Shown one piece after another: positions 1,058-61,355 of a stretch of DNA of 64,000 bases. The position numbers and the translations under genes were made by a program. Each line of letters starts with the position of its first letter. Positions within the stretch are counted from its first letter, which is position 1. The notes beneath the pieces were generated by a model, which was not told the origin of the DNA, made no database searches, and was given only the letters and a program-made list of their open reading frames with translations. The DNA is from Benincasa hispida (taxonomy: Eukaryota; Streptophyta; Magnoliopsida; Cucurbitales; Cucurbitaceae): assembly GCF_009727055.1 (NCBI RefSeq), contig NC_052352.1:28555283-28619282 (forward strand). The letters are read 5' to 3'.

Positions 1058-2722
1058 CTGGTTGAGTTAGATTCTGTTTGTGCATCATCCAAATTTATTT
1101 TCACATACATGTAAGTAGATGTATTATTTACTGGAGGTTATGCATTTCATTCAATAGTCATTCTTTACAGTTTGGCCTATTATGTGAAATTTAAGGTATC
1201 CTCATCTCTCTCTCTGTGGAAAATTTCTCCAGTAGAGCATATTTCTCCACTATGCTTGTAAACCATGGCTCTTTGATTTATATAAGGATGGCATGACATG
1301 GTTGCTCTGTTTAGACTGATATTATAGCCATGAAATTGGATAGAAGTTTCTTGTGTTTTTTTTTTTTTTTTTTGTCTTGGATGGTTTTTTCTCTCTCTCT
1401 AAGAATCCTATTATTTGTTGAACCTTTTTATAGGATATACAAGCTTAATGTAGCTTTACCTACCAGATTAGCAATTAGAGGCCACTGTTGAGTTGAATCT
1501 TGTCTGCTAGCTAAGATTGGAAGTTTGAAGCTTAGCTAGTTTTCTGGGAGAAAGTCAAAGTAGTATATTTCAGGACTAGGAAAACCAAAACTACTCTTCA
1601 GATCAAGTCCACTAAACGAAAGAAAAAAGCAAACTAAATTCTGATTTAAAGAATTAAATCAAACCAAAACTAACCATTTCATTTAGCATGGATTTAATTC
1701 TTTTTTTTGGTTATTTGTCTAGACATTTCAAAGTAGAGACTGAATTTGAAGTAGAAGAAGAAAAAGAACAGGAGAAAAATATGCAAGAAGGGTGAGTTTG
1801 AAATAGGAAAAAGATGGAGTGAAAAGACAAGACAGAGAAATGGAGGAAAGTGATTGGAGAGAGAAGAAATGAAAGAAAAGTGGTGGAAGCTATTTTGAGA
1901 AAATGAAAGATACAAATGAAAATGATAGAGATGAAATCTAAAAAGTGGAGATTAAAAGAACAGAGAAATGATAGAGCAAATCCTAGGAGAGTGAGTAAGA
2001 AGAGATTAGTATTAAAGGTTGGATCAGCTTAGTTTTAAATTTAAATCTTTTCCCTTCTGTTTATGGTTTCCTCTCACACCATGTATAAATTTTTGAATTC
2101 TTCTTGCTAATTATTTGTAAATTACTAGTTTAAATATATTAAAAAATAAATAAGTTCTAAGTTTCCAATTACTTTTTCAGGAATCTCTCTTTTTCCTTTT
2201 CCTTTTTAGGTATATATGTATAAATCATCACTCTTCTTTCCTTTTGGCTTCTTTTAAAACAAAATGAATAAACATGTAACAATGATGAAGTGTATAGAAT
2301 CAATGCAATATCATTGTGACAAGAAATAAAGCTAACTTGGTGTCATCATTGGTTGAGAAAACCCTTGTGTTTTACCTACAAAGTCAGTCGAGGCTTTTGA
2401 AATTTATATTTTGCTATGTAATTACATGTTAATCTATGGGTGCTTTGTGCTTATTTTCTTGCCAACCATTATTTGCAATCAAATCAACTTCTTTTTCTCT
2501 CTCTCTTCATATTTTTTAGTGAACATATACATATCATTTGGCATTTGAGGTGAGGGATCATTTAACATTCTTATCAGGTATGTTATTCTTCAAGAACAAG
2601 GCATTGCTGAGAGATGTCTCTATTAACTTCCATCTTGTCAAGCACATCAACTCAAAGAAAGTAGCATATATGTCTATTATCTTTAACATATACAAATGAT
2701 CATATAATTCTATCATAAAACT
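1058..2722. other. 3' UTR and AT-rich intergenic DNA
   Basis: The 3' untranslated region of the preceding gene should occupy the first few hundred bases. There is a short TC run near 1206-1216, a T18 tract at 1356-1373 and a purine-rich stretch (GA/AAG runs) at about 1740-2000. The purine run produces a long open frame on the opposite strand made of Ser/Phe/Leu repeats, which I regard as an artefact. No supported gene is seen. Confidence 0.5.
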
Positions 2723-2900
2723 CTTACCGGGTGTTTGGTCTAAAGTGTTGGGAGGAGTAGAGTTGTGAATTCTATTCCTTGTATGGCCTAAAGTGTTTGT
2801 GGACTTCATGACTAAAAAATATCAATTTTATAACTTATTTACTCCTTGCACCATGACTCATGGAGTTCACAATTTTCACTCCTTGCCTCAAATGGCACTT
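2723..2900. mobile_element. possible MITE-like sequence
   Basis: It starts GGGTGTTTGGTCTAAAGTG and contains 'GTATGGCCTAAAGTGTTTGTGG' type repeats followed by a GCCTCAAATGGCAC segment. Plant MITEs often begin with a GGGTGTTTGG terminal motif. I could not find a clean inverted partner or a target duplication, so this is a weak call. Confidence 0.2.
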
Positions 2901-3480
2901 TCCAAAATCCCATATCTTCTATGAGATAATGCTTTTATTCGATAAAAAGTTGTACTCATAAAGGGATTTAACAACAAATGAATATTTCACTATATCATGT
3001 TTGTGAAAGTTGTTTTAACAACAATATTATACAATTTGCTTGTATGTAAACAATCAAATGACTGGCATGAAATTGAAAATACAACACTGTTACGAAAAGG
3101 GATATTATTGTTGATGTGATGAATAAAAAACGCGCAGACATCAAAGTACATGAATTACCCTAGTGAATTAGAAATCGGGAATCCTTCGACTATGTGAACT
3201 CCGAATCCCCAACTACTTGGCTCCCATTGATTTGATTTTGATCAAACTCTTAAGGTGTAGATAACAAGTTTTTTGCTCAAGATTTAAATACTACGTTGAT
3301 ATATAAAATGAGCAATCCTATTTGAATTTTCATGCAAATTCAAGACATGAAATACAAAAGGGATGAAGTTTTTCTATTTTTCTTTTTCTTTTTCTTTTCC
3401 TTTTTCCTTTTAATAGATAAGGAGAAAAATGAAAATGAGGGAGGGAAACAAAAATAAGGGGTCTTAAATTTTTTCTACTT
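2901..3480. other. intergenic DNA without a recognised feature
   Basis: AT-rich sequence with a pyrimidine tract (TTTTCTTTTTC repeats) at about 3374-3412 and an adjacent purine tract. No coding or element signature is visible. Confidence 0.4.
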
Positions 3481-3772
3481 TATTCTCAATATTTAAAAAA
3501 AAAAAAAAAAATTGGTGACATAGTAATAAGCTACTAAGTGCTATTTACTGTTGCTAATAATAGTGTTTTGCGACATGTTATTTATTTATTTATTTTTCAA
3601 TTAAGGGTAGAGGAATTCAAATCACAGACTTTGTGGTTATTATTAGTATTTTTTAGTACATTTTGGGACATGTTATTTGCTACATCATTATAAGTAGTAT
3701 TTAAAGATCAAATTTGATTGTGTCACTAAAAATATTGTTACTAAAAGTGAATTTTCTTGTAGTAAATTCTAA
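3481..3772. mobile_element. non-autonomous CACTA-like element, one terminus
   Basis: The right end reads, on the reverse strand, TACTACAAGAAAATTCACTT, close to the CACTACAAGAAAA terminus common in plant CACTA (En/Spm) elements. Inside it are subterminal repeats of the GTGTCACTAAAAAT / TTACTAAAAGTGAA kind. No transposase is present and the left terminus is not clear. A related terminus lies near 8812. Confidence 0.4.
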
Positions 3773-4167
3773 ACTAAAAACTTACTCCATGATATATGTT
3801 ATGTAAAAGGTCTAAACATACTTCATAGCCTCACAAAACTAATAAAAATTACATCAAAATTATTAAATAAAATATAAACAATAAATTAGTGTAGTTGATT
3901 GTTCATATAAGAAGCTCTTCTAGAAAAAGGGAAGAATAAGAGAAGAACATTGCATGGTGGATGATGCAAACATTTTATGATCTTTTCTTTATGTTAGAGA
4001 AATGACAAAACCAACCCAAATGGTGTGAAGTCCCTAAAAGCATAGAAATTATCTTCTTCTTTCTTTCTTTTTCTTCCATCATGGGTGGTTTATAATTCAT
4101 TATTGCCTTTGTCTTTACAAAGATATAGATCCAAACAGAAATTAATACAGCTCTCTAATGAAAAGAG
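3773..4167. promoter_or_regulatory. upstream region of the peptide precursor gene
   Basis: This is the sequence between the CACTA-like terminus and the start codon at 4168. It is AT-rich and holds TATA-like words (for example TTTATAATTC near 4089), but I cannot assign a transcription start. An upstream ATG at 4158, out of frame with the main start, opens a frame that overlaps the precursor start; the main ATG has G at -3, the upstream one has C. Confidence 0.35.
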
Positions 4168-7100
4168 ATGCCTATTGTAGCCATAACTTTGCTATGTCTC
4201 TTAATCTCCAATCCACAGATGCAGTCTCGGTCATTGCTCCATCCCCCAGGTTCGTATTATTTTATATATTTCCATCAAGTTTAGTAGTAGTTTAAAGTAT
4301 GTTTGGATAGTGATCTGAAAATAGAAATTTAAAAATAAGTAGTTTTAAAAAATGTATTCCAATATTTTCCGATGAATGTTTGATAACAAAATATTTTACT
4401 TACTAACTAAATATTAAGTTAATTAATTTATGAATTAAAATGTTTTATGTTATAAATTGTATATGATTATTATTCTACAATATCCAATGTAATGAATAAT
4501 ATTGTACATATTTTAGTTTAACATAGTTTTTAAAAAAAATTGTCTTCGTTTAGCGAAAAAAAAAAAGGTTTATAATGTGTGAAATACAAAATTTTTTTAA
4601 GCAAGTATTTATTTTGCAATTTATATTTTCTAATTCAAAATCGAGATACACTAAAAAAAAAAAAAATCCAATTATTTTTAAAATTTCATTATTGGGATCC
4701 ATCTATTAAATTTCCTTCCAGAAGTGGCACCATTACGTTCACGAGTTCAAATTGACTTGAAGAATGCATCAACATTTACATTACATTATAAAAATAATTC
4801 ATAAAACATGCAAAATAAACCATAAAATGTCACTTACTATGTGCATATAATAAAAACGATAAACATTTTAATTTATTTAAAAAACATAAAATATTTATTT
4901 ATTTAATTAAATCAATTATTTCAAGTGTAGGTTTTTTTTTTTAATAGTTTTTCATAAATATCAATTGACAATATTTTTATGGATATATTTGTCAACATCA
5001 ACATTTACATCTTGATCATTGAAATAAAAAAATAATTCTACCAGATATAAGTGAATTTGAAAACATAAAATAGAATTCCATTTGTGTTTTCTCCTTCTCA
5101 TTCCAACATTTCACAATCTTTTTTTCGGTTAGTAACTCAAAACTGCAAATTAATTCTTGAGTTGGTCTAGTCAATTCCTAGTTTCTAGGAAATAGTTGAA
5201 GTTATTTTTAGTTGTAGTCAAGTCTAAATTTCTATTTTTGTGGAGTTAGTGGGATTAGTTACTAACATTGTGGAACCTATTTTTAGACTTAAAATATGCA
5301 TTTATATGTAGTTTTCTAGAATGAAATAAACACACATCCCATTTTTCTCATTTCCCTCTCATTAGTTAGAACAACAGTGGTATCAGAGCCCTTAATTCCT
5401 AAGGGACCTGTGATGAGAATCAGTGAAATATCTCTGAGAGAAACTGAGTGATACACCTGTGAGAGTTGTTAGATATGGAATTAGGATCAAACAGTCTTTC
5501 TTCATTGGCTCAATCTGTGTTTGATGGTGAAAACTACCAGGCATGGGCTATCAGAATGCAAGCCTACATGGAAGGTTGTGATTATTGGGAAGCAATTGAG
5601 CAAGACTATGAGATTGCTCCACTTCTTGATAACCCAACAATACATTAGATCATGACTCACAAGGAGAGGGTTACCAGGAAGGCAAAAGCTCGAGCTTGCC
5701 TATATGCAACTGTGTCTTTCGCCATATTCAACAGAATTATGGCCTTGAAGTAGGTAAAGGAGATCTGAGAGTTCCTCAAAAATGAGTATGAAAGTGATGA
5801 GAAAATTAAAGGCATGAAAGTGTTAACTTGGTGCGAGAATTTGAGAGAATGCAAATGAAGGATTTTGAATCCATTAAAGAGTACTCGGATAAGTTGATTG
5901 GGATTGCTAACAAGGCAAGAGCATTAGGAACCAATTTATCTAACGATAGATTGGTTTAGAAGATTCTAGTTTCAGTACCTGAGAGATATGAAGCAACCAT
6001 TGCTTCCTTAGAAAATACTAAAGACCTCTCAAAATTCAAGGTGGTAGAAGTGGTTAATGCTTTGCAAGCACAAGAGCAGAGGAGGTTAATGAGACAAGAA
6101 GGAGGCATTGAAAGCTAAAGTGCAGTAGGGAGAAGGTGGAAGAGAGAAGAAGGGGAAAGGGAAGAAGGGAAGTGGCAACAGTAGCTCAGAGTCTGTTACA
6201 AAGGATGCTGGTAGTACATGCAAGCACTGTGGGAAGCAGAATCATCCACATTTCAAATGCTGGAGAAGGCCAGATGTGAAGTGTAGAAGATGTCATTTAT
6301 TGAGGCACATTGAACGATTCTGTAAGGAAGAAAAAACTCAACAATAAGGAGGAGTACATGTTGTAGTACAACAAGAAGAAAATCAACTCTTTATGGCTAT
6401 TTGTTTCTCAACAGTCACTCAATGTGATGGTTGGTTGGTTGATAGTGGGTGTACCAATCACATGACAAATGACAAAGAATTGTTCAAGGACCTTGACAAG
6501 TCATTCAAGTCAAGGGTGAAGAAAGGAAACAATGAGTATCTAGAAGTAAAGGGGAAGGACAGAGTGTCAATAGAGAGCTATGTTGGAACCAAGTTGATTA
6601 CTGAAGTGTTTTTTGTCCCTGAAATTGATCAAAACTTGTTAAGCGTTGGTCAATTAGTAGGGAAGGGATTCAAAGTGTTGTTTAAAGAAGGAAAGTGCCT
6701 CATTTATGATTCCAATGGGAATGAGTTGTTCAAAATAAAGATGTAGCACAAGAGCTTCTCGTTGGATCCACTCGAGAAGGAGTAGATAGATTTCAAGTGT
6801 CAAGTGAATGACACTGAGTTATGGCATGAGAGGTTGGGACATTTTCATCAGAAAGGGTTGCAATATCTGTAGAAGAATGAGATGGCAGTAGGAGTACTAG
6901 TTTTAGAGGAGCTGAAAACAAACTGTAGAGCTTGTTTAACAGGGAAGCAAACAAGGCTGCCTTTCAAGAAGTCACGATGGAAAGTAACTGAGAAGTTGCA
7001 AAAGGATGATGGAGAGGAACCTGCCGATGAGAATGTGTACAGAAGTCTAGTTGGATGCCTCATATATCTCACATCCACTAGGCCTGACATTATGTACACT

Positions 7101-8258
7101 GTAAGTGTCTTATCTAGATTTCTTCACTGTCCAAGCAAGAACCATATGGTTGCTGGAAAAAGGGTTATGAGATATCTGAAAGGTACACTGTCATTTGGGA
7201 TCAAATTTAGTAAAGTTGAAAATTTTGAGTTACAAGGCTACTCAGATAGTGATTGGGCTAGGTCATTAGATGATATGAAGAACACCTCTGGCTATTGTTT
7301 CACTTTTGGCTTAGGGTGTTTCTCATGGTGTTCAAAAAAGTAAGATATAGTGCCTCAGTCAACTGCAGAAGCTGAGTTCATTGCAGCGATGATAGCAGTC
7401 AACCAAGCTGTTTGGTTGAAGAAATTGATGCATGACTTGCATCTGAAGCAGGAAAAGTGTGTGAAGGTGTTTGTGGATAATCAAGTCACTCAAGCCATTT
7501 CATTGAATCCAGTTTTTCATGGAAGGACCAAACATTTTAAGATCAAGTATTATGTTCTGAGAGAGATGTAGAAGGAAGGAGAAGTGCAGCTGGTACATTG
7601 CAGCTCAGAAGAGCAAATAGCTGATATCTTCACAAAGTCTTTTTGTGTGAGTCGTTTTCAAGCTCTTAAGAGCAAGTTAGGTGTTTGCAGTATTTGAGTT
7701 AGAAGGAGAATGTTAGTTTTTGAGTTGGTCTAGTGAATTCCTAGTTTCTAGGAAATAGTTGAAGTTATTTTTAGTTGTAGTGAAGTTTAAGTTCCTATTC
7801 TTGTGGAGTTAGTGGGATTAGTTGCTAACATTGTGGAACCTATTTTTAGACTTAAGATATGTATTTATATCAAGTTTTTTCTAGTTAGAAATAAACACAC
7901 TTCCTATTTTTCTCATTTCCCTCTCATTAGTTAGAACAACATTTTCTTTTTCAATTTTAATTGAACTAAGTGTATGATTTGGTTGATTTAATGTAGAACT
8001 GCCCAGGAAGATCATAATCTCAAAGGAAGCTTCTTCTTCTGAGGATCAAGAATTTTCCGGTGAGCGAAGGTGATACCGATCAATTAGTTCATTGAAAAGT
8101 CATGAGATGATTGATGTTAAATTATGAAAATTGCAGGCAATGGAGAATGGGATATCGAAGATAAAGATGAAGATGATCAATTGGAGCGCTTTGCAATGGA
8201 TTATAGTAGTGTAAAACGACGTCGTCCCATACATAATATGTCTTCCCAACATCCTTAA
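4168..8258 (+). CDS. secreted GOLVEN/RGF/CLEL-type peptide precursor, three exons
   Basis: Exons 4168-4249, 7997-8059 and 8137-8258 splice at GT/AG sites, each junction splitting a codon after one base. They encode 88 residues ending at TAA 8256-8258. Residues 1-14 (MPIVAITLLCLLIS) look like a short signal peptide. Residues 37-65 are Ser/Glu/Asp-rich with EDKDEDD. Residues 70-82 are DYSSVKRRRPIHN, followed by a six-residue tail. In the RGF/GLV/CLEL family the mature 13-residue peptide starts Asp-Tyr, where tyrosylprotein sulfotransferase modifies Tyr, and ends His-Asn; RGF1 is DYSNPGHHPPRHN. The match in length, start, end and position at the C-terminus is strong. Family members are secreted and act through RGI/RGFR receptor kinases in root meristem and gravitropic growth. 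Intron 1 is 3.75 kb because a Copia element sits in it; without the element it would be about 0.93 kb. Intron 2 is 77 bases. Expression is not shown by the sequence. Confidence 0.78.
5127..5376 (+). repeat. 5' LTR of the intronic Copia
   Basis: From about 5156 it matches 7720-7941 with scattered substitutions and ends TTAGTTAGAACAACA. The first 30 bases are diverged; 5148 is an alternative start if the preceding bases are not LTR. Confidence 0.7.
5378..5389 (+). other. primer-binding site, initiator Met tRNA type
   Basis: TGGTATCAGAGC lies one base after the 5' LTR, the usual plant Copia primer-binding site. Confidence 0.85.
5475..6323 (+). pseudogene. Copia gag with two zinc knuckles, disrupted
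   Basis: The frame opens MELGSNSLSSLAQSVFDGEN and continues with the QAWAIRMQAYMEG block typical of plant Copia gag (UBN2-type). A stop at 5646-5648 interrupts it, and later parts fall in shifted frames. Two CX2CX4HX4C zinc knuckles follow at 6219-6260 and 6282-6323, both with all Cys and His residues. Gag would form the virus-like particle and bind element RNA; this copy cannot make an intact protein. Confidence 0.7.
6393..6746 (+). pseudogene. Copia aspartic protease region
   Basis: The frame holds DGWLVDSGCTNHMT, the Copia protease active site (D-S-G), then the NEYLEVKGKDRV and FFVPEIDQNLLSVGQL blocks. It ends at a stop at 6744-6746. In an intact element it would be continuous with gag and integrase. 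Confidence 0.75.
6810..7697 (+). pseudogene. fused gag-pre-integrase / RNase H remnant with internal deletion
   Basis: TELWHERLGHFHQKGLQYL is the gag-pre-integrase motif. It runs to CRACLTGKQTRLPFKKSRWK, the edge of the integrase, and then passes in frame into a block ending VYRSLVGCLIYLTSTRPDI, from the end of the reverse transcriptase. RNase H follows with YSDSDWARS, QSTAEAEF and VFVDNQ. The integrase core and the reverse transcriptase catalytic region are absent. Stops at 6870-6872, 7341-7343 and 7569-7571 add further damage. The pol frame ends near 7697. Confidence 0.72.
7701..7710 (+). other. polypurine tract
   Basis: AGAAGGAGAA lies directly before the 3' LTR start TGTTAG; second-strand synthesis of the element would start here. 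Confidence 0.7.
7711..7941 (+). repeat. 3' LTR of the intronic Copia
   Basis: Starts TGTTAGTTTTTGAG and ends TTAGAACAACA; pairs with the copy ending at 5376. Confidence 0.85.
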
Positions 8259-31299: not shown

Positions 31300-32215
31300 T
31301 GATGGTTTCGCCCCTGGGTGGTGCTCCTTACTGATTTCCTTATGTCCAAGAAACATTTGGATGGTTTCTCCATCCAGGGTTATATGTATTAGAGAATGGG
31401 TTGTTTTTGATGAAGCATACTGATTGAAGGTTTTGTGGACATTCAGCATAGAAGTGAGGATCTCCGCAGCCCACACAGCTGACCGTCGGCTGCCCAAACA
31501 CCTCTACCTGATTCATTTTCTGCTGATTTGATGCGTTTCCTAACGTTATGTTCTGTAGAAGGCTGGTCATCATAGCCACTTGAGTAGAAAGTATGGCTAT
31601 TGCATTGGCATCAACAGAATTAACATTCTGAGATTTCCTTCTCCTGTCATTTCTTCCATCATATGTATCATCCACCCATTCCATATTGTGTTTAGTAATG
31701 CGGTCTAGTATCTCTTTAGCCTCAGTATAGGATTTGTCCATAAGTCCACCAGCTGCTGCTACGTCTGCTGCCATCTATGATGCTCTATTTAGTCCTCTTT
31801 GGATAGTCAGTGGTAGTCCATGGTTTGGGCAATTTTTGACTAAGCCCTTAAAACGCTCCCATGCGGTGCTTAAGGTCTCAGTATCTTCTTGTTCAAAGTT
31901 CATAATCTCTCGAAGCCTCCTCGCGTTGGTGGTAGGTGGGAAGTATTTTTGCATAAATTTTTCCACCAACTTCTCCTAGGTGGTGATTTCACCAGGCTCC
32001 AGTGAGCTCACCCATTGTTTTGCGTCATCACGCAAAGAATAGGGAAACAAGGACAACTTGATTGCCTCTGAGGTGATTCTAGGAATCACAAATGAATTAC
32101 ATGTTTCCAAGAAACGCTTCATATGGGTGTGAGGATCTTTACCATGACCACCCCAAATTGTCCAGCAGTCTGGAGCATTTGGAGCATAACAGATTTCATT
32201 TCGAACCTGTTCCAT
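31300..32215 (-). pseudogene. Gypsy gag (- strand)
   Basis: Three consecutive open pieces (32215-31976, 31969-31775, 31774-31340) read as one gag broken by single stops. They contain HMKRFLETCNSF, YSLRDDAKQWVSSLEPG, FPPTTNARRLREIMNFEQ and a zinc-knuckle-like CVGCGDPHFYAECP. Confidence 0.75.
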
Positions 32216-61125: not shown

Positions 61126-61204
61126 TCAATATGCATTCAAATAGGATGATGACCACACTTCAACGCATACTACTAGCCTCGGATATCCAACGCATAGCAT
61201 ATCA

Positions 61205-61355
61205 CCACACATAGTACATCACCAACGCATAATGCATCACCAACGCATAGTGCATCACCAACGCATAGCGTATCACCAACGCATAGCGCATCACCAACGC
61301 ATAGCACATCACCCACGCATAGCAACCGATGCATACTGCATCACCAACACATAGT
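61205..61355. repeat. 18-bp minisatellite, CATCACCAACGCATAGYG
   Basis: About eight imperfect head-to-tail copies of CATCACCAACGCATAGTG-like units within solo LTR C. They create a repetitive open frame on the opposite strand. Confidence 0.85.

Follow-up and report, generated by a model that had tools for sequence, protein, structure and literature searches.

The closest described systems are the Arabidopsis RGF/GLV/CLEL peptides, which are cited here from excerpts of the respective papers. For CLEL6 (RGF6/GLV1) and CLEL9 (RGF9/GLV2) the signal peptide is removed, the precursor is cut by SBT6.1 in the cis-Golgi, and maturation includes tyrosine sulfation, proline hydroxylation and a last cut that is aspartate-dependent (PMC7162652). 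Transcripts of GLV1 and GLV2 occur in aerial tissue, the growing hypocotyl included, and overproduction of the two leads to longer hypocotyl cells (PMC4983112). It has also been reported that RGI receptors perceive GLV2 and that GLV2 raises the abundance of immune receptors (PMC9066070). Group R of the family is described by central R/K residues and, in seed plants, mostly by H at position 12, and in lycophyte Group R 9-18 residues come after the mature peptide (PMC8329595). Most RGF genes carry introns that are diverse in number and length (PMC8708909); the exon layout of GLV1 and GLV2 was not found in the portions of PMC8708909, PMC11939866 and PMC5641559 that were covered.

In the window, by which we mean the whole 64,000-nucleotide stretch of Benincasa hispida DNA that was analysed, we found what is, with a probability of roughly 0.9, a nuclear gene whose product is the precursor of an RGF/GLV/CLEL peptide, of Group R and of the GLV1/GLV2 kind. 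The gene adds a new member to a family that is known and whose biology is already established. When the GT/AG combinations were listed, the forward-strand segments 4168-4249, 7997-8059 and 8137-8258 were found to join into an in-frame precursor of exactly 88 residues that ends in MDYSSVKRRRPIHNMSSQHP, which bears out the three exons and the junctions 4249/7997 and 8059/8137 given in the preliminary description. The start ATG is at 4168, the stop codon ends at 8258, and the precursor is laid out as MPIVAITLLCLLISNPQMQSRSLLHPP / ELPRKIIISKEASSSEDQEFS / GNGEWDIEDKDEDDQLERFAM-DYSSVKRRRPIHN-MSSQHP. Exon 1 (4168..4249, 82 nt, coding), for which translation, hydropathy and donor score were used, encodes a strongly hydrophobic N-terminus that is, as judged by hydropathy only, a likely signal peptide. 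It is followed by intron 1 (4250..7996, 3747 nt, GT...AG), which has a retrotransposon remnant inside, by exon 2 (7997..8059, 63 nt, symmetric phase 1-1), in the translation of which the prodomain starts and R-K-I-I is found, and by intron 2 (8060..8136, 77 nt, GT...AG). Exon 3 (8137..8258) translates into an acidic stretch, the mature peptide, a six-residue tail and the stop. The acidic middle noticed earlier is indeed there, as 9 of the 21 residues from 49 to 69 are D or E, and the motif scan placed the predicted mature peptide DYSSVKRRRPIHN at 8199..8237, with the 13-residue length, the Asp-Tyr start and the Pro-x-His-Asn end that had been described; it is not C-terminal as had been stated, because the six residues MSSQHP come after it. 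Likewise, the precursor as a whole is invisible as a single ORF but exon 3 is not, since it can be read as a short ORF of 44 residues from an ATG at 8124 inside intron 2.

The 88-residue precursor matched the Pfam family PF21529 "GLV1-2" with 33.3 bits (E 9.1e-8) over residues 4-82, the curated cut-off being 28.1 bits. Exon 3 alone scored 27.7 bits, slightly under this cut-off, the 48 aa of exons 1 and 2 gave no Pfam match by themselves, and a comparison of the protein with solved structures gave no match. A search for relatives with all 88 residues, as the preliminary description had proposed, found nothing among 5.8 billion database proteins; it was with exon 3 and then with a profile that relatives were obtained. 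The 40-residue exon 3 query returned one candidate from the same 5.8 billion proteins and this one, P0001 (58 aa), passed with 68% identity and an E value of 1.6e-7. The two-sequence profile made of exon 3 and P0001 returned four candidates of which two passed, one being P0001, itself in the profile, and the other P0002 (47 aa, E 4.0e-11). Both relatives carry MDYTTVKRRRPIHNMST and six-residue tails, both have DYTTVKRRRPIHN-MST with 11 of the 13 motif residues identical to those of the window peptide, and in both of them GNGEW or DGEW precedes the motif, GNGEW being the form kept in P0001. They too score above the PF21529 cut-off, with 29.5 bits for P0001 and 29.0 bits for P0002, and the family named in the preliminary description is thus upheld by the precursor and by two outside sequences. 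Unlike the window precursor of 88 aa, the two relatives (source tag lgn) are without a hydrophobic N-terminus, and possibly they are partial gene predictions.

The junctions, above all that between exons 1 and 2, are the least certain part of the model. Splice sites were scored with approximate plant weights and expressed as the rank among all GT or all AG dinucleotides of the window. On this scale donor 4250 is at the 99.5th percentile and donor 8060 at the 99.3rd, and acceptor 8135 is at the 99.4th and acceptor 7995 at the 95.3rd. There were 43 candidate first exons in 2001-7990, starting from 20 distinct ATGs, that join acceptor 7995 in frame, candidates of less than 14 residues having been removed before counting. 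Among these 43, exon 1 at 4168 had the highest 11-residue hydropathy, 3.32 compared to 2.19 for the next ATG, in agreement with the hydrophobic start claimed earlier, and it also had the best donor score, 4.83 compared to 1.35 for the runner-up. The gene could be a true GLV gene whose first exon or junctions differ from those of the model, in which case the precursor would be somewhat different and the mature peptide the same. What speaks for this is that all five alternative splice products sent to Pfam were above the PF21529 cut-off and, with 34.3-37.9 bits, outscored the 88-residue model. The profile therefore fixes neither junction and it is left to splice-site strength, as given by the approximate weights, to decide. 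Here every alternative is weaker than the model at the donor, at the acceptor or at both: the donors are at the 75th (4230) and 20th (4254) percentiles, and the acceptors at the 92nd (8005, near the chosen 7995 at the 95th), 45th (8028), 38th (8144) and 43rd (8159). In addition, acceptors 8144 and 8159 would cut GNGE wholly or partly while P0001 keeps it, and the retention in P0001 of GNGEW, the first residue of which spans the exon 2/3 junction, favours acceptor 8135. We therefore consider other junctions unlikely. The two introns of the model are predicted from splicing signals and are a feature that is not diagnostic of the family. An out-of-frame ATG is present at 4158, ten bases upstream of the gene ATG; its start context looks weaker by eye, and it could damp translation.

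Intron 1 contains a degenerate copia-type LTR retrotransposon of about 2.8 kb on the same strand as the gene. The aligned parts of its LTRs lie at 5150..5376 (5' LTR) and, by direct-repeat alignment, at 7713..7941 (3' LTR), both on the forward strand, and 209 of the 227 aligned bases are identical. One base past the aligned part of the 5' LTR stands TGGTATCAGAGC, which we take to resemble a primer-binding site. The LTR pair differs by 10 transitions and 8 transversions (K2P 0.084); with an assumed 7e-9 to 1.3e-8 substitutions per site and year, this corresponds to some 3-6 million years since the two LTRs parted. The interior (5463..7571, forward strand) consists in the Pfam scan of gag pieces and Pol_BBD interrupted by stops and frame changes. 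Seven stop-free pieces, picked from 25 ORFs on both strands, were scanned; four matched DUF4219, copia-type gag or Pol_BBD with E values of 0.1 or better, one gag piece among them scoring under its curated cut-off, and three were without any match. Neither the integrase core nor RVT_2 was matched by any of the seven pieces, and a target-site duplication was not recognised by eye in the flanks of the element.

Gene decay, or reduced expression owing to the insertion, is conceivable. An unproductive locus, either a recent pseudogene or a silenced copy, in which the retrotransposon in intron 1 or a regulatory loss blocks productive transcription, would fit with the 2.8 kb element and with the surroundings, as 8 of the 10 other long open frames scanned on both strands, at 10802-56931, match retrotransposon domains, which we presume to be copia- and gypsy-like. 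Set against this, the three exons are open and their splice sites rank high, and the LTR divergence implies that there was time enough for some decay. That the exons are still open after the insertion mildly favours a working gene, and we regard a dead or silenced copy as improbable. With the working gene, the copia remnant would leave with the spliced intron 1 and is probably tolerated. The notion that the insertion put the GLV gene under new control, through LTR-driven or silencing-linked expression or an intron-dependent dosage, is decidedly speculative and has a slim chance of being right; if true, it would mean a lineage-specific expression variant of a growth and immunity peptide. In general, annotation can miss short split peptide-hormone genes, above all where a transposon has stretched an intron.

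Some other features were observed elsewhere in the window. At 31815-31918 there is a match to the plant C/D-box snoRNA snoR71 (RF00097) with 45.2 bits at a cut-off of 40. A serine-rich open frame of 174 codons at 328-852 is without a Pfam match, and we take it to resemble plant GAR2-related proteins. At 61187-61355 an 18-base unit is repeated in tandem in about 9.7 copies within an open frame that has SPTHS repeats and gave no Pfam match.

The extent to which the family match depends on the 13-residue motif was seen in shuffled sequences. None of three full shuffles of the precursor matched PF21529, and when the 13-mer was kept and the remainder scrambled the scores were 20.6, 17.3 and 23.0 bits, all three under the cut-off, from which it follows that the stretch before the motif contributes besides the 13-mer. 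The strict motif DY....[RK]3P[IV]HN occurs once in the six frames of the window and in none of 200 two-base-block shuffles, and no second copy of the motif was found within the window. One occurrence in six frames was also counted for the loose family motif, and since 10 of the 200 shuffled windows reached as many it is not decisive alone. That unrelated DNA should resemble a GLV motif by chance, which this last count might suggest, is very improbable because the strict motif was absent from all shuffles, the profile match extends beyond the motif and conserved relatives (P0001 and P0002) exist outside the window. The motif positions D1, Y2, P10, H12 and N13 are all present in DYSSVKRRRPIHN. 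The central K6, R7, R8 and R9 together with H12 agree with the Group R description as excerpted from PMC8329595 and not with H-type RGF1, so the basic subgroup suggested in the preliminary description stands, and position 9 is R, replacing the P9 of the H type, as it is in RGF8 and RGF9 in the PMC11534595 table.

We infer the expression, splicing and processing of the window gene by analogy, and as in the Arabidopsis family the hydrophobic start would direct the precursor to the ER and SBT6.1 may cleave the prodomain in the Golgi. The precursor has two candidate sites for this cut, R21-S-L-L and R31-K-I-I, which match the S1P/SBT6.1 pattern R-X-(L/V/I)-X taken from PMC7162652. This pattern is weak, as at least two such sites were present in 94 and at least one in 730 of 2000 shuffles of residues 16-69. 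The Asp-Tyr pair needed by TPST is present in the precursor, and Tyr71 would be sulfated by this enzyme, after the model of the Arabidopsis peptides. An aspartate-dependent subtilase may then release the peptide and the short tail may be trimmed, and the predicted apoplastic product would be DY(SO3H)SSVKRRRPIHN, to which at least one residue of the tail may remain attached. If it behaves like its Arabidopsis counterparts, the apoplastic peptide would bind RGI-type LRR receptor kinases, and RGI signalling would affect cell elongation, gravitropism and pattern-triggered immunity.

Neither DYSSVKRRRPIHN nor any of three variants of it that are shorter or longer was found in the open-access paper text that was searched, figures and supplementary files being outside this scope, and the same is true of RRRPIHN and KRRPIHN in that text. 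Since DYSSVKRRRPIHN is absent there, it may be a new Group R sequence variant. The literature on cucurbit RGFs and on GLV1/GLV2 gene structure that was searched gave nothing on the window gene. The tail of six residues is shorter than the 9-18 residues reported for lycophyte Group R in the part of PMC8329595 used. Motif identities were counted against ten Arabidopsis peptides, the sequences of which were typed from the table in PMC11534595; among these ten the nearest were RGF8/GLV6 and RGF9/GLV2 with 8 of 13 residues each, followed by RGF6/GLV1 and CLE18 with 7 of 13.

RGF6/GLV1/CLEL6 (AT4G16515) shares the PIHN end and the basic centre with the window peptide, but has P at motif position 9 where the window peptide has R. 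Its precursor is given as 86 aa in the excerpt of PMC4983112, close to the 88 here, yet as 147 in the PMC11534595 table, and its SBT6.1 sites RRLR and RRAL, as cited in the excerpt of PMC7162652, are absent as such from the window precursor. RGF8/GLV6/CLEL2 (AT2G03830) has in common with it the RRRP.HN core, whereas its precursor is longer, 123 aa in the PMC11534595 table. RGF9/GLV2/CLEL9 (AT5G64770) resembles the window gene in its short precursor, 79 aa in the same table, in the frame DY...RPIHN with a basic centre, and in that PF21529 is named for GLV1/2. Compared over the motif, its centre is A-N-K-K-R and that of the window peptide is V-K-R-R-R; the synthetic CLEL9 peptide ends in HNR in the excerpt of PMC7162652, whereas here HN is followed by the tail MSSQHP, and the window gene differs further in having a retrotransposon in intron 1.
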